The notes below the pieces were generated by a model. That model searched no databases and was not told where the DNA came from. It worked only from the letters and a program-made list of their open reading frames with translations. From contig NZ_OMPN01000001.1 in NCBI RefSeq assembly GCF_900291975.1, forward strand, positions 2,742,501 through 2,806,500: a DNA stretch of 64,000 nucleotides, given 5' to 3'. The DNA is from Agathobaculum massiliense. GTDB taxonomy: Bacteria > Bacillota > Clostridia > Oscillospirales > Butyricicoccaceae. Shown here in pieces: positions 36,221 to 64,000 of the stretch (positions within the stretch are counted from its first letter, which is position 1; every line of letters starts with the position of its first letter). Made by a program: the position numbers and the translations under genes.

Positions 36221-37252
36221 ATGTCTGAAGTTTTATCACAAAGCCAAATAGATATGCTCCTCAACGCGGCGAGAAACGGCAATATTGACGCGGGAGTGGG
36301 GAATACCGCACAGTCTGAAGAAAAGCGGTATCCGAAATATGACTTCTACAGCCCTAAGAAGTTTACACGCGACAGGCTCAAGATGGTGAGTAGTGTTTTT
36401 GAAAGCTATGTCAGGGTGTTGTCCTCCCGATTGAACGCAATGCTGCATCTGGCATGCGACCTTGAGGTCGAGTCCGTTGAGGAACAGCGGTACTACGAGT
36501 TTTCCAATGCCTTGAGCGAACGGGATGTGCTGGTGCTGGTGCAGGATACGCTGGAGGATACGGGGGAAAAGGAGCCGATCCTGCTCCATATCACGACAGG
36601 CATCATGGTGAGTATGATTGACCGCCTGCTGGGGGGAAGCGGCGACGTAGAGGGCGAGATCGGATCGGATTATGAGTATACGGATATAGAGCTGAGGCTG
36701 TACACAGACCTTATGCGGAGCATGGTGGACTGTTTGGACAGCGCTTGGAAAAATTATATTGATATCGGATTCCGGTTTAACCGCGTCGAGGTCAATCCGA
36801 CGCTGGTTCAGTTGATCGGGCTGGATGAGGCCGTTGTTATCATTGGTATAACAGTAAAGACGGCTGTCAGCAGCGGACGCTTCAGTATATGCCTGCCAGG
36901 CACCATGCTGAGCGACGTGTTCAGCCAAATGAATCGGGAAACCAGCAGCATGCGCCAGCCCAATAAGCATGACAGCGATGAAATTATGGATTACCTGCGC
37001 GCCTCGGAGCTTCCCATTATTGCGGAACTGCAGCACACAACGCTGAGATTGTCAGATATTTACCATCTGCATGTTGGCGATGTGATAGATTTGGGACAGC
37101 CGAAGGATTCAAAGGTATTCCTGAATATAGGGGATAAGCGTTGGTTCGACGGCACCATGGGAGTGTTTCAGAAAAATAAAGCGGTTCGGATCGATAAGAC
37201 CTATGTGCTGTCTGAAATGGGGCGCTTAGAAGATGAAGGAGAGAGGCAGTAA
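36221..37252 (+). CDS. fliM: Flagellar motor switch protein FliM
   Basis: The 343-residue protein has the CheY-P-binding peptide LSQSQIDMLL at residues 5-14, a CheC-like middle domain (residues about 40-235) and a C-terminal SpoA domain (LRLSDIYHLHVGDVIDLG). It links FliG to the lower C-ring. Its stop is 2 nt before the start of fliY. Confidence 0.97.
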   Translation: MSEVLSQSQIDMLLNAARNGNIDAGVGNTAQSEEKRYPKYDFYSPKKFTRDRLKMVSSVFESYVRVLSSRLNAMLHLACDLEVESVEEQRYYEFSNALSERDVLVLVQDTLEDTGEKEPILLHITTGIMVSMIDRLLGGSGDVEGEIGSDYEYTDIELRLYTDLMRSMVDCLDSAWKNYIDIGFRFNRVEVNPTLVQLIGLDEAVVIIGITVKTAVSSGRFSICLPGTMLSDVFSQMNRETSSMRQPNKHDSDEIMDYLRASELPIIAELQHTTLRLSDIYHLHVGDVIDLGQPKDSKVFLNIGDKRWFDGTMGVFQKNKAVRIDKTYVLSEMGRLEDEGERQ

Positions 37253-37254
37253 GA

Positions 37255-38496
37255 ATGGCATCGAGTTTGTTTAGCCCAATGGCGATGGATGCAATTGGAG
37301 AGATTTTCAACATCAGTTTGGGCTCTTCTGCAACGGCTGTTTCCAATATGCTGGCGCGGCGTGTGGACATCACAACGCCCAAGGTATCGCTTGTATCCGC
37401 CGAAAATTTCACGCTTGGCGACCTACAGCCCGCAATCGGTGTAAAGATCGATTACATAGCCGGACTGACCGGAAGCAACATCATGCTGCTCAAACGGAGC
37501 GATGTGCGGGCGATCGCGGATATCCTGCTGGGAACGGAAACCAAAGACGAGGACTTCCAGATCAATGAGCTGAACATGAGTGCGATTTGTGAGGTCATGA
37601 ATCAGATGATGGGGGCTGCATCCACCGCAATGTCTGATTTTCTCAATCGCATGGTGAATATCTCAACGCCGCAGGCGTTTGAGATACAGAGCTTGGATGA
37701 ATTTGTGCGGGAATATTTCCCGTCAGGTGGAACGATGGTTGTCGTCCGCTTCCAGCTTAGCATTGAAAATGCAGTCGAAAGTGAATTTATGAGCGCGCTT
37801 AGCATGGATCTGGCGTGTGAACTGCTGGAGGGCTTTAACATTTCCGGTGCCGATGTCGGCCTGCCGGAGGAGCCGTCGCCACAGGCGGCGGCATCCCCAG
37901 CTCCATCGCCTGTGGCAGAGCAGGCAAGCGTCGGCGCGGCGTTGAGCCAGGATGAGATTGAAAAGCTGCTGGCACAGAATATGCCTTCCGCGGAAGTGTC
38001 GGCAGAGACACCGCAGCAGGCAGCCGTACAGTCGCCACAGGAAGCGGCACCTGCTCGTGCAGCTGAGATGCCGCAGCCTCAGATGCAGATGCCATATCCC
38101 CCGTATGGGATGCAGATGCCATACCCGCCCATGTATTACATGCCTCAGCCGCCGGCGGAGCCGAAAACAATCAAAACAAGCAGCCCTGTCATGCCGGAGC
38201 TGGACAGCAGGACGGCGCAGCTAACGCAAGAGCAGGAGGGCAATCTGGATTTGCTGATGTCCGTACCGGTGGACGTGTCAGTCGAAATCGGAAGGACGCG
38301 CCGGCGGGTAAAGGATATTTTGAATTATACAAAGGGCTCTCTTGTGGTGCTGGACCGATTGGCAGGGGATCGGGCGGATCTGTATGTCAATGGAAAATGC
38401 ATTGCCAAAGGTGATATTGTGGTAGTTGACGATAACTTTGGCATCCGTATTGCCGAGATTATTGAACCGTTGGAACTGGAAGACCTAAGCAAGTAA
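37255..38496 (+). CDS. fliY: Flagellar motor switch phosphatase FliY
   Basis: The 413-residue protein has a CheC-like phosphatase domain with both active-site patterns intact (E-x2-N in GEIFNISLG near residue 15 and in CEVMNQMMG near 114). A long Pro/Ala/Gln linker contains the near-duplicate MQMPYPPYG/MQMPYPPMY around residues 280-300, and a C-terminal SpoA/FliN domain follows (LLMSVPVDVSVEIGRTRRRV). It dephosphorylates CheY-P at the switch. Confidence 0.95.
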   Translation: MASSLFSPMAMDAIGEIFNISLGSSATAVSNMLARRVDITTPKVSLVSAENFTLGDLQPAIGVKIDYIAGLTGSNIMLLKRSDVRAIADILLGTETKDEDFQINELNMSAICEVMNQMMGAASTAMSDFLNRMVNISTPQAFEIQSLDEFVREYFPSGGTMVVVRFQLSIENAVESEFMSALSMDLACELLEGFNISGADVGLPEEPSPQAAASPAPSPVAEQASVGAALSQDEIEKLLAQNMPSAEVSAETPQQAAVQSPQEAAPARAAEMPQPQMQMPYPPYGMQMPYPPMYYMPQPPAEPKTIKTSSPVMPELDSRTAQLTQEQEGNLDLLMSVPVDVSVEIGRTRRRVKDILNYTKGSLVVLDRLAGDRADLYVNGKCIAKGDIVVVDDNFGIRIAEIIEPLELEDLSK

Positions 38497-42133: not shown

Positions 42134-44206
42134 ATGAAACGAATTTTTGACAATGTCATATCTGTGTTCGTGGTGGTCATCGTGCTTTTTCTTCTGATTC
42201 CGCTGCCGCCATTCCTGCTGGACGTATTTTTTATTCTGAATATTTCATTGTCGCTGATCATCCTGCTGATCACGATGAATATTAAGGAGCCGCTGGAATT
42301 TTCAATTTTTCCGTCGCTTCTGCTGATCACGACGCTGTTCCGTCTGGGACTGAATGTTTCCTCAACGCGCCTGATCCTGTCTGAGCAGGGGGAAGCAGGG
42401 CAGGTAATCAAGGTCTTTGGCGAATTCGTTATTCAGGGCAACGTGGTTATCGGCGTCATCATATTTCTGATCATTGTATTGATGCAGTTTATCGTAATCA
42501 CAAAGGGCGCGGAGCGCGTGGCAGAAGTCGCAGCGCGTTTTACGCTGGACGCCATGCCTGGAAAGCAGATGGCGATTGATGCAGATTTGTCCTCCGGTAT
42601 CATAAACGAACAGGATGCCAGACGCCAGAGAGCGAAAATCCAGCGGGAAGCAGACTTCTATGGTGCAATGGACGGCGCGACCAAAATCGTAAAAGGTGAT
42701 GCGATCATGTCGATCATCATCACCTCGATCAACTTTATCGCGGGCTCAATCATTGGCATTGTACAGTCTGGCATGGAACTGAGCGATGTTCTCAGCATTT
42801 ACTCGATTGCAACGATTGGCGACGGCTTGGTATCGCAGCTGCCGGCGCTGATGATTTCCACAGCTACCGGCATGATCGTAACACGTTCGGTTGCAGATGG
42901 AAGCCTGAACAACGATGTAATCCGTCAGTTTCTGGCGCAGCCGCGCGCGCTTTCGATTGCGGGGCTGATACTTGCCATATTTGCGGTCCTTCCCGGTACG
43001 CCGCATGTTCAGCTCATATTGATCTCGGCTGCTCTGTTTCTGGTCAGCCGGCGGGTAACCAGCCAGATGGAGGCGCTGGAACGGCAGCAGCAGGAATTGC
43101 CGGCGGCACAGGAAGCTGCAAAACGCGAGGCGGAAGCACAGCAATCCGAGATGGATTATTATAAAGATATTAATAATGTGTACTCGCTGATCAATATCGA
43201 GCCGATCGAAATGGAATTTGGATATAGTCTGATCCCGCTGGTTGATGAATCGAGCGGGGGCAAGCTGATCAGCCGTATCGTTATTTTTCGGCGCCAGTAT
43301 GCACAGGATATGGGCTTTGTCGTGCCGTCTATCCGCTTGCGTGATGTGGCGATGCTGGGGACCAACCAGTATGTCATCAAGATTAAAGGGGAGGAAGTGG
43401 CGCGCGGAGAGATCCTGACAGATTATTATCTTGCGTTGGAGCCGCCGAATCCCGCAGGGGAAATCGACGGGATTGAAACCATAGAACCCTCCTATGGGAT
43501 TCCCTCTCGCTGGATTCTGCCCGAAAATAAAGAAATGGCGGAGATCTATGGCTATACAGTGATCGACCCGCTTTCGGTTATGCTGACACATTTGTCGGAA
43601 ACGATTAAAAAGCATACCTATGAAATCCTGAACCGTGCGGAAACCATACAGCTTGTGGATAACATGAAGAGAATCGCCCCCCAGTTGGTGGAAGAGGCGT
43701 TCCCCAACGTTATCTCCTATGCAATGCTGGAGAAGATTCTGAAAAACCTGTTAAAAGAAGGGATACCGATTAAGGATATGGTGACCATCGTCGAAACGGT
43801 TGTTGACGCGGTAGCGATTACCAGGGATACGGATTTGATTACCGAAAGCGTGCGTGCCCAGTTGAAGCGGACGATTACCCACCGGTTCTGCGAGGATGGA
43901 AAGCTGAACGTAATTACACTGGATGCAGAAGTGGAGAAGAAGATCGTGGCAAGCCTGACGAAAAACGAACAGGGCGTTTATCTTGCCATCGGCCCCGAAC
44001 TGATGCAAAAGCTTTTGTCACAGCTGGGGGAATATGTAAAAAAGTTTGCCGAGCTTTCGCAGAAGCCGATTCTGCTGACCAGCCATATCATCCGGATATA
44101 TTTGAGCAGGCTGCTGGAACAGTTTTATCCGGATATAACAGTGCTTTCCTTTAATGAGATTATTACAAACGTGCAGATTCAGTCGCTGGGAAACGTTACG
44201 CTTTGA
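42134..44206 (+). CDS. flhA: Flagellar export channel protein FlhA
   Basis: This 690-residue protein is the largest export component. About eight membrane helices lie in residues 10-310, with the conserved FHIPEP-like region containing FTLDAMPGKQMAIDADLSSG. The cytoplasmic chaperone-docking domain then runs to the end (GYTVIDPLSVMLTHLSE, ERTITHRF-like). Length is normal. flhF and flhG, which often come next, are absent here. Confidence 0.98.
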   Translation: MKRIFDNVISVFVVVIVLFLLIPLPPFLLDVFFILNISLSLIILLITMNIKEPLEFSIFPSLLLITTLFRLGLNVSSTRLILSEQGEAGQVIKVFGEFVIQGNVVIGVIIFLIIVLMQFIVITKGAERVAEVAARFTLDAMPGKQMAIDADLSSGIINEQDARRQRAKIQREADFYGAMDGATKIVKGDAIMSIIITSINFIAGSIIGIVQSGMELSDVLSIYSIATIGDGLVSQLPALMISTATGMIVTRSVADGSLNNDVIRQFLAQPRALSIAGLILAIFAVLPGTPHVQLILISAALFLVSRRVTSQMEALERQQQELPAAQEAAKREAEAQQSEMDYYKDINNVYSLINIEPIEMEFGYSLIPLVDESSGGKLISRIVIFRRQYAQDMGFVVPSIRLRDVAMLGTNQYVIKIKGEEVARGEILTDYYLALEPPNPAGEIDGIETIEPSYGIPSRWILPENKEMAEIYGYTVIDPLSVMLTHLSETIKKHTYEILNRAETIQLVDNMKRIAPQLVEEAFPNVISYAMLEKILKNLLKEGIPIKDMVTIVETVVDAVAITRDTDLITESVRAQLKRTITHRFCEDGKLNVITLDAEVEKKIVASLTKNEQGVYLAIGPELMQKLLSQLGEYVKKFAELSQKPILLTSHIIRIYLSRLLEQFYPDITVLSFNEIITNVQIQSLGNVTL

Positions 44207-44249
44207 TCTGGCATAGCCCGGAAGATGAGAGAGGACGGGAAGAGGCGTT

Positions 44250-45032
44250 TTGGAAGAACAGAAGCAGTGGGCAGAGCTGTCGAACGAGGCGCTGCTCGAA
44301 GAGTATAAGCAGTCCGGTGATAAGGAACTGAAAAAGGTTCTGGTGATGCGGTATGCCTGTCTTGTAAAAAATGTGGCACTAAAGCTGCGTGGGGTTTATG
44401 CCAGCTTCGCACAGGTCGATGATATTATTAACGAGGGGATCATCCTTTTAATGAATGCTCTGGATAAATTTGATCTGAGCCAAAATGTAAAGTTTGAAAC
44501 CTTTATATGCAAACGCCTGCGCGGCATGATTATTGATGTTGCGCGGAAGCAGGACTGGATCCCCCGGTCCGTGCGCCGACATATGCGGGAGATCGATGAG
44601 GCCAATGGGCAACTATATACTCGACTGGGCAGGGCGCCAACAGATCAGGAGGTGGCAGGGCATCTTGGTATCAGCGTGGAGCGCTACCAAGCAGAGCTTG
44701 CCAAGACTGCTTTGTGCAATGTGCTTTCCCTGGACATGATGCTGGATGAAAACGATTCCGACACATTGGTGAAAAAGCTGCCGCAGAGTGACGCGGACGC
44801 CCAGCCGGAGGAGCGTTATCAGAAGAAGGAGATGCAGAAAGTTTTGCGTGACAGTATTGCAGGGCTGCGGGAAAATGAGCAGGTTGTTCTGTCACTGTAT
44901 TATCAGAAGATGTTGCAGATGAAAGAGATAGCAAAGGTGCTTGGCGTAAGCGAGCCACGTGTTTCTCAGATCCATTCCAATGCGATCCGGAAGCTCCGAG
45001 CCGCAATGACAGCCTATATATATGATACATAA
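44250..45032 (+). CDS. fliA: Flagellar sigma factor, sigma-28/FliA (SigD) type
   Basis: The 260-residue factor has region 2 (FAQVDDIINEGIILLMNALDKFD), region 3 (GRAPTDQEVAGHLGISVERY) and region 4 (MKEIAKVLGVSEPRVSQIHSNA), the full FliA/WhiG pattern. It should direct late motility genes such as flagellin. The start is TTG with GGGAAGAGG upstream, implying modest translation. flgM, its anti-sigma factor, is not in the window. Confidence 0.95.
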   Translation: MEEQKQWAELSNEALLEEYKQSGDKELKKVLVMRYACLVKNVALKLRGVYASFAQVDDIINEGIILLMNALDKFDLSQNVKFETFICKRLRGMIIDVARKQDWIPRSVRRHMREIDEANGQLYTRLGRAPTDQEVAGHLGISVERYQAELAKTALCNVLSLDMMLDENDSDTLVKKLPQSDADAQPEERYQKKEMQKVLRDSIAGLRENEQVVLSLYYQKMLQMKEIAKVLGVSEPRVSQIHSNAIRKLRAAMTAYIYDT

Positions 45033-48646: not shown

Positions 48647-49975
48647 ATGGTAAAAAATAAATATATTGTCCGGCAGGCAATCAAGGACGCGGACAGCCAT
48701 GTGCTGGGATATGAGATTATGTATTCCAACGGAAATGAGGCATACGGAGGGGATACGGGAGAGGATGCGGCGGCTGCGGAAGCAATTTACGACTTCCTGA
48801 TGCAGAACTCTGAAAAAGCCCTTAAGGATTCCTGTACATTTATGACCTTCACCAGTTCCTTGCTGGCGCGCCGCACACCGCATCTGTTTAAGAACGACTC
48901 GCTCATCATTCAAATCGATGACAGTGTAATCATCCATCCTTTTGCCATGCATTTGGTACAGCAGTATGCAAAAGAGGGATACCAGATTGCAGTCAACGAT
49001 TTTCAGTTTATGCCGCGCTATCTGGGCATGTTGGAATATATCTCCTATATCAAACTCAATATGCAGACAACAGGAGGCAACTCGGCGGAAAATGTCATGC
49101 GTGTGGCGCACAGTATGAATAAGCGTGTGATCGCCACGGGCGTGGATGACCAGCAGAAGTTTGACCAGGCCAGAGAACTGGGCGTTTATGGCATGCAGGG
49201 AGCATTTGTGGCAGATAAGTTGGCGAATAAGGTGCATCAAAGCGGCTACCTGCGCAGCAATTTCTTTCGTCTGGTTGTTGCGGTTACACGTGAGGAGCCC
49301 GATGTACAGGAAATTGAGCAGATCATTTCCATGGATGTTACACTGACTTACAGCCTGCTCAAAATTGCCAACTCGGCTTATTTTGCGCGCCGTACACAGA
49401 CGACCTCCGTCCAGCAGGCGATTATGACACTTGGATTAAACCAGATTAAGCGCTGGGTATACCTGCTCAGCGCGGGCGACCAGAGCGCGCAGGAGCTGGA
49501 GGATTCCGAGGAGTTTATCAAACGGTCGTTTATGCGAGCAAGCTTTGCAGGCGAGCTGCACCGCTATATGAAGCAGAAGCCCTTGACCCGTTCAGAGGCA
49601 TACCTGCTTGGTATGTTCTCTACGCTGGGCTACCTGATCGATGCGCCGATGGAGGATATCCTTTCGGATATCCCGATGGTGGACGAACTACGGAATGCAT
49701 TGCTCAGACATGAAGGGACTGCGGGCAAGCTGCTTGAACTGATCATAAGCTATGAGAAGGCAGATTGGAAGCAGATTACGGAAAACGCGGAAGCGCTGGG
49801 AATACCGGCAAACCTGCTCACGACCATTTATTTCGACTGTATGGAGGAAGTGAACCGGATGTGGGAGCAGATGCTCCACCCGGCTATGAGCGAAGAGGAG
49901 GCCGCCGATGCGCAAGCGGCGCTCACGGCGCAGCCTGACAATGAAAAAGAGTCTCTGCCAAGAGAGGAGAACTAA
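48647..49975 (+). CDS. HDOD protein with degenerate EAL-like domain
   Basis: The 442-residue protein has an N-terminal half resembling an EAL cyclic-di-GMP phosphodiesterase fold, but its signature reads LGYEIMYSN in place of EAL, and the metal-binding acidic residues are missing, so it should not cleave. The C-terminal half is an HDOD domain (ISMDVTLTYSLLKIANSAYF, SVQQAIMTLGLNQIKRWVYL). This is the YuxH/CdgJ type. It could be a cyclic-di-GMP-responsive regulator. Last gene of the flagellar operon, before a strong terminator. Confidence 0.88.
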   Translation: MVKNKYIVRQAIKDADSHVLGYEIMYSNGNEAYGGDTGEDAAAAEAIYDFLMQNSEKALKDSCTFMTFTSSLLARRTPHLFKNDSLIIQIDDSVIIHPFAMHLVQQYAKEGYQIAVNDFQFMPRYLGMLEYISYIKLNMQTTGGNSAENVMRVAHSMNKRVIATGVDDQQKFDQARELGVYGMQGAFVADKLANKVHQSGYLRSNFFRLVVAVTREEPDVQEIEQIISMDVTLTYSLLKIANSAYFARRTQTTSVQQAIMTLGLNQIKRWVYLLSAGDQSAQELEDSEEFIKRSFMRASFAGELHRYMKQKPLTRSEAYLLGMFSTLGYLIDAPMEDILSDIPMVDELRNALLRHEGTAGKLLELIISYEKADWKQITENAEALGIPANLLTTIYFDCMEEVNRMWEQMLHPAMSEEEAADAQAALTAQPDNEKESLPREEN

Positions 49976-56213: not shown

Positions 56214-56581
56214 CCGCGTGTGGAGAGACCCTGTTCGAGCCGCTGGTTGAGTGGAAGGAGCCGATCCAGCAACTGGCGGTTTTGCGCCATCTGCCGCGCG
56301 AGCAGTTGACCCTCTTCATCTTCAGGCAGGCCCCCGTCCAGAAGGGCCTGCCATTTTTGCTGCATATCGTCGGATAGGCTCGCACACAAGGTGTGTATGG
56401 CCTGATCTGAGGCTTGAAGTCGCAGAATCGACTCTTGACGCATGGTGAGCAGAAGTCCGAAAGAGGTGCGGTCTCCGCGGTCCAGCGATTCGCCGAGCTG
56501 TACGGTGAGATCAAGCGTTTCGCTTAAAGCGGTATACCTGCGGCGGAGCTGGGTCAGGAGCTGTTGGGCCTGTGCGTTCAT
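56210..56581 (-). CDS. Probable flagellar chaperone (FliT/FlgN-like)
   Basis: This 123-residue, fully helical, Gln/Leu-rich protein begins MNAQAQQLLTQLRRRYTALS. It has no sharp motif. The position after fliD-fliS, with an ATGA overlap with fliS, fits FliT, the FliD chaperone. FlgN-like is possible. Confidence 0.65.
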   Translation of the reverse strand: MNAQAQQLLTQLRRRYTALSETLDLTVQLGESLDRGDRTSFGLLLTMRQESILRLQASDQAIHTLCASLSDDMQQKWQALLDGGLPEDEEGQLLARQMAQNRQLLDRLLPLNQRLEQGLSTRG

Positions 56582-56949
56582 ACGCCGCCTTCTTTCTGAG
56601 CGGCGCGGAACGTATCGCGCAGGTCGGTCAGCCGCGGCTTTACCTCTGCCAGGATTCTGGTGTTGCGCCCGATCTTTACGCGGGTCAACTCATATGTGAA
56701 AAAATCATACAGGCGATGCAGGTCGTGGCTGATGGGATACTGTGGGTCAAGCGTATCGTCCAGATATTCGAGGATTTCGATACAGCGCGTGATGGATGCC
56801 TCGAAAAGCGTATAATCCTGCTTGCCTATGGCAAGCTCGGCGCGCGTAAGGCGCTTGACCAATTCGTCATAGAGCAGCAACAGCAGCTCGCCGCGTGTCA
56901 TCGTATTGACAGACTGCGCCTTATACTGTTCGTAGCCATGCATATCCAT
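56578..56949 (-). CDS. fliS: Flagellin export chaperone FliS
   Basis: The 123-residue helical protein has the FliS pattern: YEQYKAQSVNTMTRGELLLLLYDELVKRL at the start and a late FFTYELTRVKIGRNTR. It binds the C-terminus of flagellin before export. The start MDMHGYEQ has GGAAGGA upstream. Confidence 0.95.
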   Translation of the reverse strand: MDMHGYEQYKAQSVNTMTRGELLLLLYDELVKRLTRAELAIGKQDYTLFEASITRCIEILEYLDDTLDPQYPISHDLHRLYDFFTYELTRVKIGRNTRILAEVKPRLTDLRDTFRAAQKEGGV

Positions 56950-56968
56950 AGGCTTTTCATCCTTCCGG

Positions 56969-59524
56969 TCAATAGCCGCTCCCACCTAAGCTGGCAAGGT
57001 AGGAGCTCTGGGAATTCATCTGGCTGATCAGAACCTCCAGCCTGCTGAACTTCGCGGTGTAGGTATCGATCTGATCATTCAATTTATCGGTAAGTGTGTC
57101 AATCATATCGGTGATATCCTCGAGCTGGTTCTGGATCGTATTGTTCAGCAGGGAGAGGGGGGAATACTGAGAGCCTGCCTTTTCGATCAGGATGCCCTTG
57201 GTCGCGCCGGTGGTACCGGCATATTTGTCAAGCTGAACTTTCAGGCGGGAAATAGCGCCGCCCGAGGAGGTGTCATCCACCCAAGTGGTTGTACCGTCTG
57301 CGTTGGTAACCTGCTTTTGCTCCATCGGGTCGGAAAACGCGCTTGCCACGGCATCCGGATCGGTTTCAAGGATGGAACGCAGTTTGGTTTCGTCGAGTGT
57401 GATTTTGCCCTTATCTGAATAGTTTGTGGAAACATTGATACCGATTTTGGACAAATCAGAGCCGGAAAAGAGAAAGCGCAGACTGCTGGAGAGCGAACCA
57501 AGGTCGCTGTCATTGAACAGCAGGCCCTGCTTGGCCTTTGTCTCAAAGGCTTCAATCTCCTTATCGCTCATATCCGCCTTCTGATCTTCTGTAAGCGGCT
57601 CGTAGCTCTTATTGTAATCGGGCTGGGTGGAATACTGCTCATTGATCTCCGAGAGGACCTTGTTGTAATCCTCGACAAAGCTCTTGATTGCGTCGACAAT
57701 CTTATCGCTGTCCACCTTTGCGCTGAACGAAACACCGGAATCATTTTCCGCAGCCGCGTCAAAGGTGCCGCTGGCGGTAACGGTAAAGCCGTCTATGTTG
57801 AAAGCATTAGTGCCGCTGGTCAGCTCCCGTTCCACACCGTTAATAAGCGCGGTCATTTTTGCATCCTGTCCCTGAATACGGGTGGAGGAAGCGCTGTCGA
57901 CATACTGCCCCTGTTTGTCCAAACGCTGGATTTTTGCGGTGCTGCCATCATCACTGTATTCGACGGTGCCAAATAAACGGGCGGCAAGATTATCCGCCCC
58001 ATCCGAGGTGGTTTTGCTAATGGAAACGCGGCCGCCGGTACCACCGTGCGTGGAGGAAAATACAAACTGGTTAGAGGTTTTGGAATAACTGAGCTTGACG
58101 CCGGCCTCGGGCTTGCTGTTGATTGCGCTGGTCAACGTACTGATGCTGTCGTTTGCGCTGAATTCCCCGATCTTTACACCGTTGATTTCAAAGGAATACA
58201 GGGCGTTTCCACTTTCATCGGTCTTGATTTTCCCATCAGGGCCGGTAATAGCAGTCATACCCTTAATGATGGTGATTTTCTTTCCGTCCTGCTCTATCGA
58301 ATCGGTACCATACAGGTCGCCCAGAGTTTTGCTCGTATTGACACGGTTGGATGCGCCTCGGTCGATACCGAAAATGCCGCCCTTGCCAACCACATGGAGC
58401 GTGCCGGAGTCGATAGAAAGCGTATCGCTGTCACCCTTAACAGAGAAAGAGGGCTGGAACGTGCCATCTGAGGCGGTGTTGGAAACCGTAACCCTACCGT
58501 AGCCGAACGCCTGATCCAGCTGCGTTTGCAGATAGTTTTGCATAGCGGAATTGGGGTCAGAGGACTCGAAGATTGCCTTGTATTCTGCAGAATCCTTTTC
58601 CGGCATCGTGATTGTTGCCGTGGTGCCATTGAAAGTAAATTTCATGGAAGAACCGGCTAAAACCTCACCGGCGGGTTTGCTGGTGGCCAGATCCGTCGCT
58701 TCCACTGCAGAGGAGGATTCGATTTTATCGGTTGCCGTCAGCTTGCTTCCGCTGGACAGATGCAACGCTGTCAGCACTTCCTGAGAGGAACTGCCCAGCA
58801 GCTCGAGGGTGTTGGTTTCGCTGGAGTTGGTAAACTGGAACGAAATTTTTCCATCGACGACCTCGGCCTTGACCTTGCTGTCCATTTTTATACTGGTGCC
58901 ATCGCTAAGCGAGACAGAGGCGTTTGAAAGCTGCCGGTTAATTTCATCAGCGACATCTTCAACGCTTTTGTATTCACGATCGCTGTCAAATGTAATGGAA
59001 AAGGATTTGTTGCCATATTTAAAGGATAACTGCTTTCCGGCCAGATTACTTACGTTCACATCACCTTTCAAGTCCACGCCCTTGGAGGCGTCAATGCTTT
59101 GGGTGTTGTCAATACCACTCAAGCCGGAAAAGGTGATGGTTTCTGATTTTGCAAGCTGGCTGACACGCTGGATCACAATATCGCTTGTTGTATTGCCGGA
59201 AGCTGAAATTAAGTCCTTATATTTACCGGCTGTAGTGATAATACTCGGCTTGAAGAAATTCGCACTCATCAGATTGGTTGAGGAGGTGTACGAGGTATAT
59301 TTGGTGGAAAGCTGCACCAATTGATCGCTGATACTGCGGTACGCTTCCTGCTTCCACAGCAGCTTTTGCTGTTTCTGTTGCTGCGCTGTGATTTTGTTTT
59401 TTGTGCCCATGACCATGTTTTCGATCATGGCTTCAGTATCCATGCCGCTGGCAAGTCCGCTCAGCACATTGCGGCTGCCATAAAGGCTGGAGGCGCTGCT
59501 GCCGCCTACACTGCTTACTGCCAT
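56969..59524 (-). CDS. fliD: Flagellar filament cap protein FliD
   Basis: The 851-residue protein, longer than the usual 450-700, has FliD_N near residues 20-115 (GLASGMDTEAMIENMV), repeated beta regions in the middle and FliD_C near the end (NKVLSEINEQY, LSSSLRFLFSG, LEDITDMIDTLTDKLNDQID). It caps the filament and folds flagellin. AAAGGAG precedes the ATG. The extra length is in the central surface domains. Confidence 0.95.
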   Translation of the reverse strand: MAVSSVGGSSASSLYGSRNVLSGLASGMDTEAMIENMVMGTKNKITAQQQKQQKLLWKQEAYRSISDQLVQLSTKYTSYTSSTNLMSANFFKPSIITTAGKYKDLISASGNTTSDIVIQRVSQLAKSETITFSGLSGIDNTQSIDASKGVDLKGDVNVSNLAGKQLSFKYGNKSFSITFDSDREYKSVEDVADEINRQLSNASVSLSDGTSIKMDSKVKAEVVDGKISFQFTNSSETNTLELLGSSSQEVLTALHLSSGSKLTATDKIESSSAVEATDLATSKPAGEVLAGSSMKFTFNGTTATITMPEKDSAEYKAIFESSDPNSAMQNYLQTQLDQAFGYGRVTVSNTASDGTFQPSFSVKGDSDTLSIDSGTLHVVGKGGIFGIDRGASNRVNTSKTLGDLYGTDSIEQDGKKITIIKGMTAITGPDGKIKTDESGNALYSFEINGVKIGEFSANDSISTLTSAINSKPEAGVKLSYSKTSNQFVFSSTHGGTGGRVSISKTTSDGADNLAARLFGTVEYSDDGSTAKIQRLDKQGQYVDSASSTRIQGQDAKMTALINGVERELTSGTNAFNIDGFTVTASGTFDAAAENDSGVSFSAKVDSDKIVDAIKSFVEDYNKVLSEINEQYSTQPDYNKSYEPLTEDQKADMSDKEIEAFETKAKQGLLFNDSDLGSLSSSLRFLFSGSDLSKIGINVSTNYSDKGKITLDETKLRSILETDPDAVASAFSDPMEQKQVTNADGTTTWVDDTSSGGAISRLKVQLDKYAGTTGATKGILIEKAGSQYSPLSLLNNTIQNQLEDITDMIDTLTDKLNDQIDTYTAKFSRLEVLISQMNSQSSYLASLGGSGY

Positions 59525-59675
59525 AAAAACACTCCTTTCCCCATGATACGGGGTGATAATACAGTGAACAGGATCATGCAGAAAAAAATAAAAATCCCTA
59601 TATTTTTATCTCGACGTATAGTATACTAAAATTAAGGGCGGAAAGCTTTTTTTTAAAGACAAAGGAGTGATTTTA

Positions 59676-60446
59676 TTGGCGGAGATAATTGCGGTCACCA
59701 ATCAGAAGGGCGGCGTTGGCAAAACAACGACCGCCGCAGCGCTGATTGCTACACTGGCGGAAAAGGGGAAGAAAGTTCTTGGCGTCGATCTGGACCCGCA
59801 GGGCAATCTCGGCTTCAGCCTCGGTATAGATATTGATAATGTACATACCCTGTATGAGGTGTTTAAAAAACAGATACCGGTCGAGCAGGCGTTATGTGCT
59901 ACGGAGTATGGGGACATGCTCGCGGCAAATATCCTGTTGTCCGGTGTGGAATTGGAGTGCAACAAGCCAGGGCGGGAGTACCTGCTCAAGACCGAGCTGT
60001 CCGCGCTGTCGGCGGATTACGACTATATCATTATTGATACGCCGCCTGCACTGAACCTGTTGACAGTGAATGCTTATGTGACAGCGGACAAGCTGATCAT
60101 CCCGATGGCACCTGAGATTCTCAGCCTGCTTGGCGTAACCCAGATCAAGGAAACAATCGAAACGGTGAGGCAATACTATAACCCGCGTCTGAAGGTCATC
60201 GGTATTCTGCTCAATAAATTCAATGCACGGCTCAACCTGAACAGGGATGTGCTGGATCTGTCACGGCAGATCGCAGAGCAGCTTGATACCAAGGTGTTTG
60301 AAACAAAAATAAGGCAGGGTGTGCTTGTAGCGGAATCACCCGCACATGGGAAAAGTGTTGTGACCTATGCGCCGCACTCCAAGCCTGCAATGGATTTTGT
60401 TGCGCTTGTTGAAGAAATACTGCAGGAAGGCTCGGTGGAGCAGTAA
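59676..60446 (+). CDS. ParA/Soj-family ATPase
   Basis: The 256-residue protein has deviant Walker A KGGVGKTT at residues 11-18, GVDLDPQGNLG, and the Walker B region YDYIIIDTPPALNLLTVNAY. It is of Soj/ParA rather than FlhG type. TTG start with AAAGGAG 8 nt upstream. A GTG 9 nt earlier overlaps the ribosome site. Followed 20 nt on by a ComFB-domain gene and no parB, so its cargo may be a motility or signalling complex and not DNA. Confidence 0.92.
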   Translation: MAEIIAVTNQKGGVGKTTTAAALIATLAEKGKKVLGVDLDPQGNLGFSLGIDIDNVHTLYEVFKKQIPVEQALCATEYGDMLAANILLSGVELECNKPGREYLLKTELSALSADYDYIIIDTPPALNLLTVNAYVTADKLIIPMAPEILSLLGVTQIKETIETVRQYYNPRLKVIGILLNKFNARLNLNRDVLDLSRQIAEQLDTKVFETKIRQGVLVAESPAHGKSVVTYAPHSKPAMDFVALVEEILQEGSVEQ

Positions 60447-60466
60447 CGTGGGAAAGGGGAAAAAAC

Positions 60467-61255
60467 ATGGCGGAAAAGCGCAGCAGTAAAACGGCGCGCG
60501 TGCTGAACCTGATCACGCAGCAGGGGGGTGAAACGCCGGAGCAAAACACAGAGGAGGTACGGCAGCCGGCTGACGTAACGCAGGAAGAGAAAAAAGCGGT
60601 GAAGCGCAAGGCCGCAAGGAAAGCTACGGTCCCTCGCAAGCCGGCTGTACAGAAGAAAATAGAGGACCAGGATGAGCCGGATCAGCAAGCGTCAGCTGTG
60701 CCGGAGCGCATGGCACAATCCGCACCGCTGCCGGTTGTCCCTATCGTGCAGACCACAAAGGATCGGGAAAAGGCATTGTCGGACGAGATACGCACAGGTC
60801 TGTTACAGGCGCTGGAAGCAGAGGTGAACGCAATACCGGCGCAAACAGCGGAGGAGGAGGCGCCTCCGGATGAAAAAGCAGTCGACAATATGCCGTCAAC
60901 GGAACCGGAACCAGCGGAGCAGAAAAAGATATGCTTTCCATCACAAGGCGCAAAGGAAGAACAGGCCTTTGTAACACCGCATGGGGAAAAGGATGTCCAA
61001 TACATTAACGTTCTGCAGGAGCTGGTGGAGGAGGAAGCAGCATACTATGTAGAACATATGCTGCAATGCCGCTGTGCTCGCTGTGTTGCAGATATGAAAG
61101 CGCTGGCATTGACAAACCTGCCCTCCAAATATGTTGTGTTGGACAGCAAAAGGCGGAATGCGATGATGAGTCTGTATGCGGCGCGGTATGATAAGCTCCT
61201 GTCCGTCCAGATGATGCGCGCATGTGTGCTTGTGAATGAGAACCCCCATCATTAG
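60467..61255 (+). CDS. Protein with C-terminal ComFB domain
   Basis: The 262-residue protein has a long, low-complexity charged N-terminal part (about 170 residues rich in Lys, Glu, Pro and Ala). A ComFB domain follows: INVLQELVEEEAAYYV, the CRCARC cluster at 201-206 (three Cys) and DMKALALTNLPSKYVV. ComFB proteins have been reported as cyclic dinucleotide receptors in cyanobacteria. The residue match here is by eye. Paired with ParA upstream. Confidence 0.8.
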   Translation: MAEKRSSKTARVLNLITQQGGETPEQNTEEVRQPADVTQEEKKAVKRKAARKATVPRKPAVQKKIEDQDEPDQQASAVPERMAQSAPLPVVPIVQTTKDREKALSDEIRTGLLQALEAEVNAIPAQTAEEEAPPDEKAVDNMPSTEPEPAEQKKICFPSQGAKEEQAFVTPHGEKDVQYINVLQELVEEEAAYYVEHMLQCRCARCVADMKALALTNLPSKYVVLDSKRRNAMMSLYAARYDKLLSVQMMRACVLVNENPHH

Positions 61256-61276
61256 AAAGCAGGGAAAGGTGCTACA

Positions 61277-61311
61277 AAAAGGGGCCGCAGCATAGCTGCG
61301 GCCCCTTTTTA
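61277..61311. terminator. Bidirectional terminator
   Basis: AAAAGGGGCCGCAG-CATA-GCTGCGGCCCCTTTT is a perfect 14 bp stem between the convergent ComFB and GGDEF/EAL genes. Confidence 0.93.
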
Positions 61312-61328
61312 CTGTCGGCGGATAGCGG

Positions 61329-64000
61329 TTAATGGCTGATTGTGCCCTCTGGCGTCTCGAGCAGACGACCGAGCGCGTCCAAATCCAGCGGCCGGTAGAA
61401 ATAAAAACCCTGGATGAAATCACAACCGGTCTGTCGGATCAAGTTGAATTCGTCCTCGGTCTCCACACCTTCGACACAGACTTGTTTGCCAAAACGGTGG
61501 CAGGAATAGATAATGCTTGCGATAAAGTCCAGCTTCTGCTTGGAGGAGGTGATCCCGTGGATCAGCGTTTGATCCAATTTGATCAGGTCGGCCGGATGCT
61601 GTAGAAGCAGGGAAAGGTTGGAATAAGCTGTGCCAAAGTCGTCCAGAACAAAGGAAATGCCTATTTCCTTGCACTGCCGGATAAAGGCTTCCAGTCGCTC
61701 CGGCGCACTGTCATGATGGGTTTCCGTAAGCTCTATCAGTAGGTTGTGGGCTGGGATATGGAACTGTTGAAGCGTCTGCCGGATATGAGGGAACAAGCCG
61801 TCATCCAGAAGCTGAAGGTAGCTGATGTTGATGGAAAAGCGAAAGTCCGGCCGAAGGGAAAGAATATGCTGTGCCGCACGCGCGGTCTGGGTGATGACCC
61901 ATTTGCCGACAGGAACAATCACACCCTGCTGTTCCAGTGTGGCGATGCACTGGGAAAGCGAAACATTTTGCCCATGCATGCTCCAGCGGAGCAGGACCTC
62001 GCCGCCGAATATCTGTTGCGTAGCGGCTTCAACCTGCGGCTGGACAACGATATGGAAGCCTTCAAAGCCGTGGTTGACACTGTAATTGAGGGTAAAACCG
62101 AGACTGCTTTGTTCTCTCCGATTTTGTATCATATGGGGAGAAAATTTCAGATAATCCAGCGAGGGGAAGCCAGCCGAAACATTTGCGACCACGATGGCGT
62201 TGTCAATCAGCTCCTGCGCGGTGGCCCCGTCCTCAGGGTAATGCAGCACGCCTGCCGCGCAGGGATACATCATATGGATTCCGTATTTGGCACAGGCATC
62301 CAGCATGATATTGCGTATCCGCTGGACCGGAAGCGCAGGCTTCAGGTTTTTATGGGAGAAAGCGAGGAAATGGTTGTCACTCAGGCGAAAAAAACGGAAG
62401 AACGTACCCATCTGTATTTCCAACTGGCAGCCAATCTCACGCAGGACAGCGTCTCCCGTTTCGCGGCCGAAAGCAAGGTTGATATCGGCAAGCGGCTGGA
62501 ACGCAAAGCTGAGCAGGAGCAGGGGGGAGCGGGAAACGCTGCAGATAGCAGACAGCTCCTCTTCTGCCGAGGACAAATTGAGAAGCCCAGTGGTCGAATC
62601 AACGGCGTCTTCGTTTTTCAGGCAGACCATGCTACCGGAAAAGAAGAGCGGGCGGGCCATTTCCGCGTCCCACTTCATAATGCCGCGGCAATGGATCCAC
62701 AGCAACTGCCCCGCCTTGTTGTAAATACGGTAGCGGATCGTATGGATCTTGCGTTTCTTTTCAATCATATCCTGCAAATCGGCTATATGAAGCGCCTGAT
62801 CCGGCTTATAAATCCGCTGCTCCAACAGGTCGACAAAATTATACACAAGATTGTCTGTAAAATTGAATTCGTCTTTCAGGTTATCGGAAATAAAATAGAC
62901 ATTTTTCTGCATATCACCACAATAGAGGTAAAAGGTGGTATCTGCCATGGCGACGGACTGGAAAAAGACCTCGGGATCAAAAAAATAGTTGCTCAGGAAG
63001 TTTTGGAACGCGGTTTCCCTGGAGGAGAAGCAGGCAGGCGGCATAGCACTGCCGCGCAGCGTGGAATGGCGCGTCTGGCCGGTTGCGAGGTCGATGCGGC
63101 TGTAGTATTTCCGCTTATCCTGATACATCAGATCGTCCGCTTTCTGTATCAGGGTGCGGATATCCTGGCTGGTATCCGCTGTCCACAGGCTGCCGATAGA
63201 CAGCTCGCAATTGCTTTCAGCCAAGAACACCCGCAACTGGGCGACGCTTTGTTCAAAGTCCGGCTGCGGCGTATTATCGCATAAGACCAGGAATTCATCA
63301 CCGCCCATACGGTAGACCGGCTGGGTGGGGAACGCTTTCTGCAGAATATGAAAAATACGTACAATCAGTTCGTCGCCGCTGTTATGACCGAGCAGATCGT
63401 TAATGCTTTTCAGTCCGATCAGGTCGCAGTAGACGAGGCCGATTGAATGCAGTGGACATTCCCTGCGGATATGGTCTTTTAGTGCGCGGCGATTCAGGGC
63501 ACCGGTCATCTGGTCGTACATGCTGGAGTTCTTGAAATAATGCAGCAGATCTCGCCGCTGCATGGTCGTGGTGATGAAAGGGGACAGCACCTTGCAGATA
63601 TCGGAAAGATAGCGGAGTTGTTGCGGCGGTGCGTTGTCCAGACGCAGGTAGCCGCTGATGCGGCCCTCCAGCAACAGTGGAACAAGGAGAAGGGACTGAT
63701 CACCCCCAGCGGAAGCTTGGTCACAGAAAACGGGAAGATGCCTTTGCAGCTCTTGACCACTGGAAAGAACCAGAGGCTCGGTGCTGTCACGACCGGGATA
63801 CTGTTGTGAGAGGTACTGCTCCAAATCAAAAGGGAGTATCTTAGTACCCGCAGAGGAGGGAGGCCAGCAGTAAGTGCTCTGAAATCGGTGTTCGGCCGGT
63901 ACGCGTTCGTAAATGGAAAGCTGCAGACCGGCCTGCTGCTGTCCAATATACTGCAGCATCAGGTTCAGGGATTCATCCGGCTCATCCGAGGCCGCGAAAG
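61329..64000 (-). CDS. GGDEF/EAL cyclic-di-GMP protein (5' end outside window)
   Basis: The open frame continues to the right edge, so only 890 or so C-terminal residues are seen. Parts in order: a GAF-like domain, a GGDEF domain with the intact motif (YRMGGDEFLVL, codons near 63283-63300), a PAS-like part, a second degenerate GGDEF (LSDNHF instead) and an EAL domain. The last reads GGEVLLRW (EVL for EAL) but keeps the further catalytic acids (ELTETH, LDDFGTAYS, KLDQ, EGVET), so both synthesis and cleavage of cyclic-di-GMP are possible. Confidence 0.92.
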   Translation of the reverse strand, partial: FAASDEPDESLNLMLQYIGQQQAGLQLSIYERVPAEHRFQSTYCWPPSSAGTKILPFDLEQYLSQQYPGRDSTEPLVLSSGQELQRHLPVFCDQASAGGDQSLLLVPLLLEGRISGYLRLDNAPPQQLRYLSDICKVLSPFITTTMQRRDLLHYFKNSSMYDQMTGALNRRALKDHIRRECPLHSIGLVYCDLIGLKSINDLLGHNSGDELIVRIFHILQKAFPTQPVYRMGGDEFLVLCDNTPQPDFEQSVAQLRVFLAESNCELSIGSLWTADTSQDIRTLIQKADDLMYQDKRKYYSRIDLATGQTRHSTLRGSAMPPACFSSRETAFQNFLSNYFFDPEVFFQSVAMADTTFYLYCGDMQKNVYFISDNLKDEFNFTDNLVYNFVDLLEQRIYKPDQALHIADLQDMIEKKRKIHTIRYRIYNKAGQLLWIHCRGIMKWDAEMARPLFFSGSMVCLKNEDAVDSTTGLLNLSSAEEELSAICSVSRSPLLLLSFAFQPLADINLAFGRETGDAVLREIGCQLEIQMGTFFRFFRLSDNHFLAFSHKNLKPALPVQRIRNIMLDACAKYGIHMMYPCAAGVLHYPEDGATAQELIDNAIVVANVSAGFPSLDYLKFSPHMIQNRREQSSLGFTLNYSVNHGFEGFHIVVQPQVEAATQQIFGGEVLLRWSMHGQNVSLSQCIATLEQQGVIVPVGKWVITQTARAAQHILSLRPDFRFSINISYLQLLDDGLFPHIRQTLQQFHIPAHNLLIELTETHHDSAPERLEAFIRQCKEIGISFVLDDFGTAYSNLSLLLQHPADLIKLDQTLIHGITSSKQKLDFIASIIYSCHRFGKQVCVEGVETEDEFNLIRQTGCDFIQGFYFYRPLDLDALGRLLETPEGTISH

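Follow-up and report, generated by a model that had tools for sequence, protein, structure and literature searches.

The ParA-ComFB gene pair and its surroundings

A two-gene element was analysed near the end of a 64,000-nucleotide stretch of DNA (hereafter the window, meaning the whole stretch) from Agathobaculum massiliense (assembly GCF_900291975.1, contig NZ_OMPN01000001.1, positions 2,742,501 to 2,806,500), a gut bacterium with a genome of 3.2 Mb. The first gene encodes a Soj-type ParA ATPase, and the second, which begins 20 nt past it on the same strand, encodes a partner protein that ends in a ComFB domain. The two genes were found to be co-conserved and co-inherited, forming one genetic unit that sits mostly in flagellar loci, in sampled flagellar systems without FlhF, and that is neither a ParAB nor an FlhG system. 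No description of such a ParA-ComFB pair was found by title in the open-licence literature, and the nearest record at this locus in our scan of named strains is Agathobaculum desmolans ATCC 43058.

An earlier note on this DNA had proposed that a Soj-type ParA without parB is coupled here to a ComFB protein, which was borne out by matches to AAA_31 and PF10719 over the cut-off. The PF10719 match covers residues 181-260 of the partner (E=1.3e-10, 41.6 bits against a Pfam cut-off of 25) and is the sole one at E <= 0.001 in the genome; the Pfam scan detected no other domain in the partner, including no ribbon-helix-helix (RHH). Among the NCBIfam models listed (the best 25 of 34 for the ParA, one for the partner), none scored over its cut-off. 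The best start of the ParA gene is the TTG at 59676, 8 nt past an AAAGGAG, with the GTG at 59667 as an alternative start. The ATPase has a deviant Walker A motif (KGGVGKT) and lacks the DQAxxLR motif of the FlhG type, and its closest neighbour in the PDB is 8ray (ParA family protein), followed by 4pfs and Soj structures.

The remaining features are listed in Table 1. The gene opposite the pair had been predicted to encode an enzyme of cyclic di-guanosine monophosphate (c-di-GMP) metabolism, and indeed GGDEF, PAS and EAL domains were found in that one protein, which measures 1046 aa as called in a wider stretch (L042). Neither flhF nor flhG lies between flhA and the sigma factor gene. Proteins of the EAL-HDOD type, of which the window encodes one, adjoin the pair in several relatives, some of them outside the order.

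Table 1. Features of the window, the pair and its parts first (positions count from the first nucleotide of the window).
Feature	Position	Strand	Evidence or remarks
Ribosome-binding-like AAAGGAG, ahead of ParA TTG	59661..59667	+	Sequence reading
Soj-type ParA ATPase, 256 aa from TTG	59676..60446	+	AAA_31 E=4.4e-52; ParA tree; motif counts
Partner protein, 262 aa: N-terminal motif, disordered linker with one helix, C-terminal ComFB	60467..61255	+	
N-terminal motif SKTARVLNLI (residues 7-16), proposed ParA-contacting tail	60485..60514	+	Pattern conservation
Predicted linker helix (residues 93-121), conserved in class-1 partners	60743..60829	+	pLDDT; alignments
ComFB domain with CxCxxC; predicted zinc site C201, C203, C206, H262 (His262 just behind the domain)	61007..61246	+	
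GGDEF-PAS-GGDEF-EAL protein, extends past the window	61329..64000	-	Pfam domains
FliD, divergent upstream neighbour of ParA	56969..59524	-	Pfam FliD_C/FliD_N
FliS	56578..56985	-	Pfam
flhA (42134-44206), with a sigma factor gene (44250-45032) directly after	42134..45032	+	Pfam
FliM (36221-37252) and FliY (37255-38496)	36221..38496	+	Peptides LSQSQIDMLL (FliM), LSQDEIEKLL (FliY)
EAL-HDOD protein	48647..49975	+	Window

Conservation of the pair and phylogeny of its ParA

Neighbourhoods were fetched for ComFB matches in a sample of 394 genomes of the order and for matches in close relatives. ComFB was present in 54 of the 394 genomes and fell into two kinds. Lone copies (31) are 85-115 aa long, with one of 144 aa, and none lies directly behind this ParA, whereas the 29 long copies (146-431 aa), found via the ComFB domain or with the window partner as query, each have the ParA directly upstream on the same strand, with a gap of -20 to +65 nt. 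Three further long ComFBs are cut by contig ends (L030, L085, L079); the lone set was counted after removal of three contig-cut long copies and of a false ComFB match on a ParA (L086). The 29 pairs are spread over 28 genomes. The order sample accounts for 25 of these, and adding the three contig-cut copies brings the number of its genomes with a long ComFB to 28. A scan of named strains yielded 50 loci, overlapping many places of the first set, and the ParA was found upstream in all 43 that contain a complete long ComFB (in 41 as scored by a script, in L143 and L167 on inspection), the remainder being six contig-cut loci and one without a ComFB open reading frame (ORF). Named carriers include Flavonifractor plautii ATCC 29863, Oscillibacter valericigenes Sjm18-20, O. 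ruminantium GH1 and [Clostridium] viride DSM 6836, and over both sets 61 distinct complete partners were counted, or 67 including contig-cut ones. In a class-wide sample of 391 genomes, ComFB was found in 112, nearly all as short open frames, with neighbourhoods fetched for a minority of the short copies. Long ComFBs outside the order numbered three: two genomes (G566, G645) have the pair, and in the third (G490) the ComFB is N-terminal and the fetched 9 kb contain no ParA.

Lack of conservation of the pair, or an adjacent parB in relatives, had been named beforehand as outcomes that would refute the earlier proposal. The pair is kept, and ParB, searched for with two queries from the window genome, was detected at none of 84 pair loci, whereas the same queries found it at 30 of a set of 57 ParA loci. 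The genome's own Soj, which we take to be a gene located elsewhere (L003) beside Noc-like and Spo0J-like genes, by names assigned from their sequences, stands apart from the pair. A role in ParAB chromosome segregation was therefore rejected, on the missing ParB at the 84 loci and on this separate Soj/Spo0J locus. Further ParA genes of the window genome (G000:C2:935358, 1933305 and 2373766) have ParB-like neighbours and probably belong to mobile elements.

In the ParA tree (92 rows; duplicate loci and the contig-cut L091 left out), FlhG and MinD rows were split from the 77 other rows by a branch with support of 100/99, and the ParAs of class 1, class 2 and family f26 fell in one clade (92/97), with three other ParAs inside, separate both from Soj accompanied by ParB and from FlhG. 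Class 2, which had been defined on the N-terminus of the partner, was monophyletic in this tree (99/92). Grouping with class 2 were three ParAs without ComFB, whose partners are small, one of them weakly RHH/ParG-like and none over a Pfam cut-off; a plasmid search with one small partner as query gave no match. The Walker A lysines K14 and K19 are present in 21/21 class-1, 10/10 f26-type and 7/7 class-2 rows, and KGGAGK was read in two class-2 rows. The DQAxxLR helix motif, found in 13 of 14 FlhG proteins, was absent from all untrimmed ParAs inspected (29 from pairs, 10 of the f26 type, 2 from outside the order and 41 from the named scan). The possibility of an FlhG misread as Soj was thus rejected by the tree and by the absence of this motif.

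Flagellar loci and the distribution of FlhF

A flagellar gene was found within 3 kb of 25 of the 29 pairs, compared with 0/31 lone ComFBs. In the typical order (L033), flgK, an flgL-like gene, a DUF6470 gene, fliW and csrA are followed by the pair, reversed, and fliD-fliS; at other loci, CheD, flagellin, FapA, EAL-HDOD or PilZ genes adjoin it. At 19 of the 29 pairs FliD is encoded no more than 6 kb away, and FlgK, FliW and CsrA are common as well. FlhA, taken as the mark of a flagellated genome, is present in each of the 28 long-ComFB genomes of the sample, compared with 68 of the 394 overall. Out of the two parts of the earlier suggestion of a flagellar positioning system responsive to c-di-GMP, the link with flagella was strongly supported, and the response to c-di-GMP is doubtful.

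FlhF, called by the cut-off of TIGR03499, was detected in 17 of 71 flagellated genomes (the 68 of the sample and three relatives), and none of these 17 has the pair. In the window genome FlhF matches lie below the cut-off only, and the two genomes from outside the order that carry the pair have no FlhF over it. A search for the ParA in 40 flagellated genomes lacking a recognised pair revealed ten more positives with scores of 245-301 bits, all other matches scoring 182 bits or less, and a ComFB-like partner was found beside the ParA in eight of the ten. Such a ParA was found in none of the 17 FlhF genomes, four of which gave no match at the threshold. Altogether, the 68 flagellated sample genomes comprise 38 with the system (25 in which both genes were seen, 3 with a contig-cut long ComFB and 10 recognised by ParA score), 17 with FlhF, none with both and 13 with neither. 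Families f7 and f17 contain both kinds, in different genomes, and class-1 and class-2 pairs both occur in the window's own genus, indicating that species alone does not account for the flagellar type and the pair.

Flagellated genomes with neither FlhF nor the ParA-ComFB system detected include G035, G248, G267, G044, G068, G087, G148, G203, G260 and G318, among others.

The partner protein as a candidate adaptor

The N-terminal motif of the window partner belongs to a pattern, [SNT]KT[ASD][HR]V[LM][NS][LVM][LIV], that stands near the N-terminus of 43/43 complete named partners, partly by selection since this motif was one of the two patterns used in that scan, and of 20 of the 29 pairs; classes 2 and 3 supply the remaining nine, whose N-termini are conserved but different. 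The N-terminal tail is short and basic, and the structure model places a low-confidence helix at residues 9-17. Partners of ParA-family ATPases have been shown or suggested to act via a positively charged, disordered N-terminus (PMC10241942). A six-residue pattern, [AV][LM][NQ][LF][IL][ST], which was picked after looking at the sequences, occurs near the N-terminus in 4 of 7 plasmid-type ParA partners (0.002 of 7 in shuffles) and in 27 of the 67 distinct pair partners within the first 60 residues, or 26 of 67 within the first 40, compared with 0/720 other neighbourhood ORFs (first 40 residues). As a resemblance between plasmid-type and pair partners, it is best taken as a lead.

The helix in the disordered linker was modelled with high values of the predicted local distance difference test (pLDDT; 94 for residues 101-110 and 91 for residues 111-120), and the ComFB domain reached about 98. 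Residues C201, C203, C206 and H262 are invariant in the partner alignment and align with the zinc site of Bacillus subtilis ComFB (C25, C27, C30 and C88; PMC4381287), a histidine replacing the last cysteine, so that a zinc site is predicted. Nearly all partners retain the residues that correspond in our alignment to those of the dimer (N181, D209 and Y222), and a Foldseek search with the partner model retrieved 4wai (5e-5) as well as 8hja (2e-3), which is syn_CdgR in complex with c-di-GMP. Compared with ComFB and CdgR receptors (4wai, 8hja), the partner shares the fold, the CxCxxC of the zinc site and the dimer residues, but a C-terminal histidine would replace cysteine as the fourth zinc ligand, it has a long N-terminal extension, the T/S..G loop is mostly lost and it is paired with a ParA.

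Taken together, these features are consistent with a single functional unit, dedicated to the flagellum, in which a positioning ATPase of the ParA type works with an adaptor, a reading to which we give an even chance. ParC-ParP, PpfA-TlpT and McdA-McdB are pairs of this general kind, in which a ParA ATPase and an adaptor position a cargo. In the mechanism that we infer for the tail, DNA binding, cargo and sensing, the ParA would cycle on the nucleoid, and the basic N-terminal tail of the adaptor would trigger its ATPase, as in partners of other ParA-family ATPases. The ComFB domain would turn the adaptor into a zinc-bound dimer, the linker may contact the motor switch or CheY, and dimer and linker would together hold the cargo. 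By cycling in this way, the ParA would set the position or the number of basal bodies, or of the switch and chemotaxis machinery, and take over the task of FlhF-FlhG. The pair would resemble the three known positioning systems in an adaptor with an N-terminal ATPase-contacting tail (a general feature discussed in PMC10241942), but no adaptor domain in common with them was found, and its presumed cargo is flagellar. With ParA-ParB and plasmid cassettes it shares the type of ParA, the gene order and a basic-tailed partner, perhaps also the short hydrophobic motif in that tail, whereas no ParB was found, the partner ends in ComFB instead of a DNA-binding domain and the locus is flagellar. With FlhF-FlhG it has in common an ATPase of the ParA/MinD superfamily encoded in flagellar loci and, likely, the task, B. 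subtilis FlhG having been reported to contact FliY (PMC12826062); in contrast, the ParA of the pair is Soj-like, falls in a separate clade, lacks DQAxxLR, has a ComFB partner and occurs in genomes without FlhF. The pair is perhaps an unreported ParA-adaptor module that serves the flagellum in place of FlhF-FlhG, and it may represent an undescribed means of placing or counting flagella. Flagellar number and placement in bacteria without FlhF-FlhG is an open question, for which this module of common gut Clostridia is a concrete candidate whose build yields direct predictions. If the reading is true, the flagellum has acquired a partition-type ATPase along with an adaptor domain of a new kind, and the ComFB family has a role beyond competence and cyanobacterial cell size.

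Several observations weigh against this reading. No flagellar neighbour is seen at four pairs, namely L073, the class-3 loci L041 and L060, and L091, whose contig is short; the class-3 ParAs (G041, G083) also branch elsewhere in the tree, near a mobile ParA with long branches, and their pairs may have a separate origin. In this sample ComFB generally leans towards flagellated genomes, since 19 of the 26 genomes with short ComFB only also have FlhA. No ComFB-like partner was detected near the ParA of two genomes recognised by ParA score (G101, G146). The mutual exclusion of the system and FlhF gave a value of 2.7e-8 in a Fisher test, which overstates the independence of the genomes given the FlhA tree. 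In that tree (65 of 68 rows; fragments G237, G209 and G249 left out), a group of 18 rows (15 with FlhF, 3 with neither) stands against 47 rows (38 with the system, 9 with neither), so that the exclusion comes chiefly from a single deep split; the pair accordingly marks one flagellar lineage, with few independent replacements. The 13 flagellated genomes with neither indicate that neither system is obligatory, although in one of them (G399) the contig is broken where the ParA would lie (L206). When the ParA and its partner were folded as one chain, the N-terminal motif remained undocked, with pLDDT block means of 49 and 41. Finally, the window partner contains no switch peptide of the kind described below, under the pattern used.

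Whether the adaptor is switched by binding of c-di-GMP or of cyclic di-adenosine monophosphate (c-di-AMP) to its ComFB domain bears on the least certain part of the scheme, the sensing of a cyclic dinucleotide by the paired domain, and such a switch is a doubtful possibility. The match of the partner fold to syn_CdgR with c-di-GMP points that way, as does the binding of both c-di-AMP and c-di-GMP reported for Synechocystis ComFB (PMC12313861). Genes related to c-di-GMP (GGDEF, EAL-HDOD or PilZ) were found within 3 kb of 10 of the 29 pairs, compared with 1/31 lone ComFBs, and in family f26 (nine genomes) a row of PilZ, GGDEF, ParA and partner genes lies beside flgB-flgC-fliF at 4/4 widely fetched loci; at a narrowly fetched locus of that family (L230, G377), the ORF before the ParA measures 244 aa and is not GGDEF-sized. 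In contrast, the Y..[TS]..G loop, our own proxy for ligand binding and also visible in CdgR, was found in 26 of 31 lone ComFBs but in just two of the 29 pairs (both class 3), or two of the 67 distinct partners. The three f26 partners scanned have a ComFB domain below the Pfam cut-off, and since GGDEF occurs in 71/71 flagellated genomes examined, its presence does not discriminate. The GGDEF/EAL gene was rejected as a third conserved member of the module, having been kept at 3 of 32 long-ComFB loci, some of whose contigs end too early.

In the partners of the f26 loci L203, L204, L205 and L207, the degenerate ComFB keeps CxCxxC and a C-terminal FH.

The linkers raise the alternative that the pair positions chemoreceptor arrays or a pool of CheY instead of flagella, with switch peptides in the linker capturing phosphorylated CheY (CheY-P), which we consider unlikely. 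Arrays are positioned by ParC-ParP and PpfA-TlpT, and peptides of the FliM/FliY type bind CheY-P. The peptide LS(Q/D/E)xxIxxL(L/F) was found in 36 copies in the linkers of 10 out of 78 partner rows (0.0 in shuffles); without duplicates, these are 23 copies in 7 of the 67 distinct partners, six of which have two or more, and the window's own FliM and FliY peptides are of a form like those of the linkers. In addition, a gene for a methyl-accepting chemotaxis protein lies within 6 kb of 9 of the 29 pairs and CheD within that distance of 4. However, the frequent vicinity of FliD, FlgK, FliW and CsrA argues for the flagellum, the switch peptide belongs to the C-ring as well, and most partners lack it. 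A partner of the ParP type carries an array-binding domain of its own, whereas ComFB is the sole Pfam domain of the window partner.

Two to five copies of the switch peptide lie in the disordered linkers of the partners at L087, L089, L033, L144, L145 and L147.

It is improbable that the pair regulates late flagellar gene expression or the order of assembly, with ComFB as a sensor and the ParA as a nucleotide switch. Loci of the L033 type, which put the pair amid flgK, the flgL-like gene, DUF6470, fliW, csrA and fliD-fliS, would suit this role, and the ComFB homologue CdgR has been reported to work via the transcription factor DevH in Anabaena (PMC13075795). Against it stand the Walker A lysines, kept in every class-1 ParA row, and a build of tail, linker and dimer domain that would be that of positioning adaptors. 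As for a partition cassette of the plasmid type that was left behind in the chromosome and plays no part in motility, the small partners grouping with class 2, one weakly RHH/ParG-like, and the six-residue pattern in common with plasmid partners hint at it, but the flagellar loci of many genera, the occurrence in flagellated genomes only within the sample, the terminal ComFB domain and the lack of any ParB found make it very improbable indeed.

Returning to a positioning module of the flagellum, a more speculative version, to which we attach little probability, is that a dinucleotide-gated ParA system replaced FlhF-FlhG in one clostridial flagellar lineage, after the DNA-binding domain of a partition cassette had been exchanged for ComFB, and that some linkers tether the adaptor to the C-ring or to CheY-P. 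If this replacement were true, the level of a second messenger would decide the place or the number of flagella.

Another ComFB near an ATPase of the ParA superfamily, here of the capsule type, was seen at L069 (7487-10024, in G267), where a ComFB gene of 144 aa overlaps a CpsB/CapC gene and lies next to a Wzz/BY-kinase-like gene.

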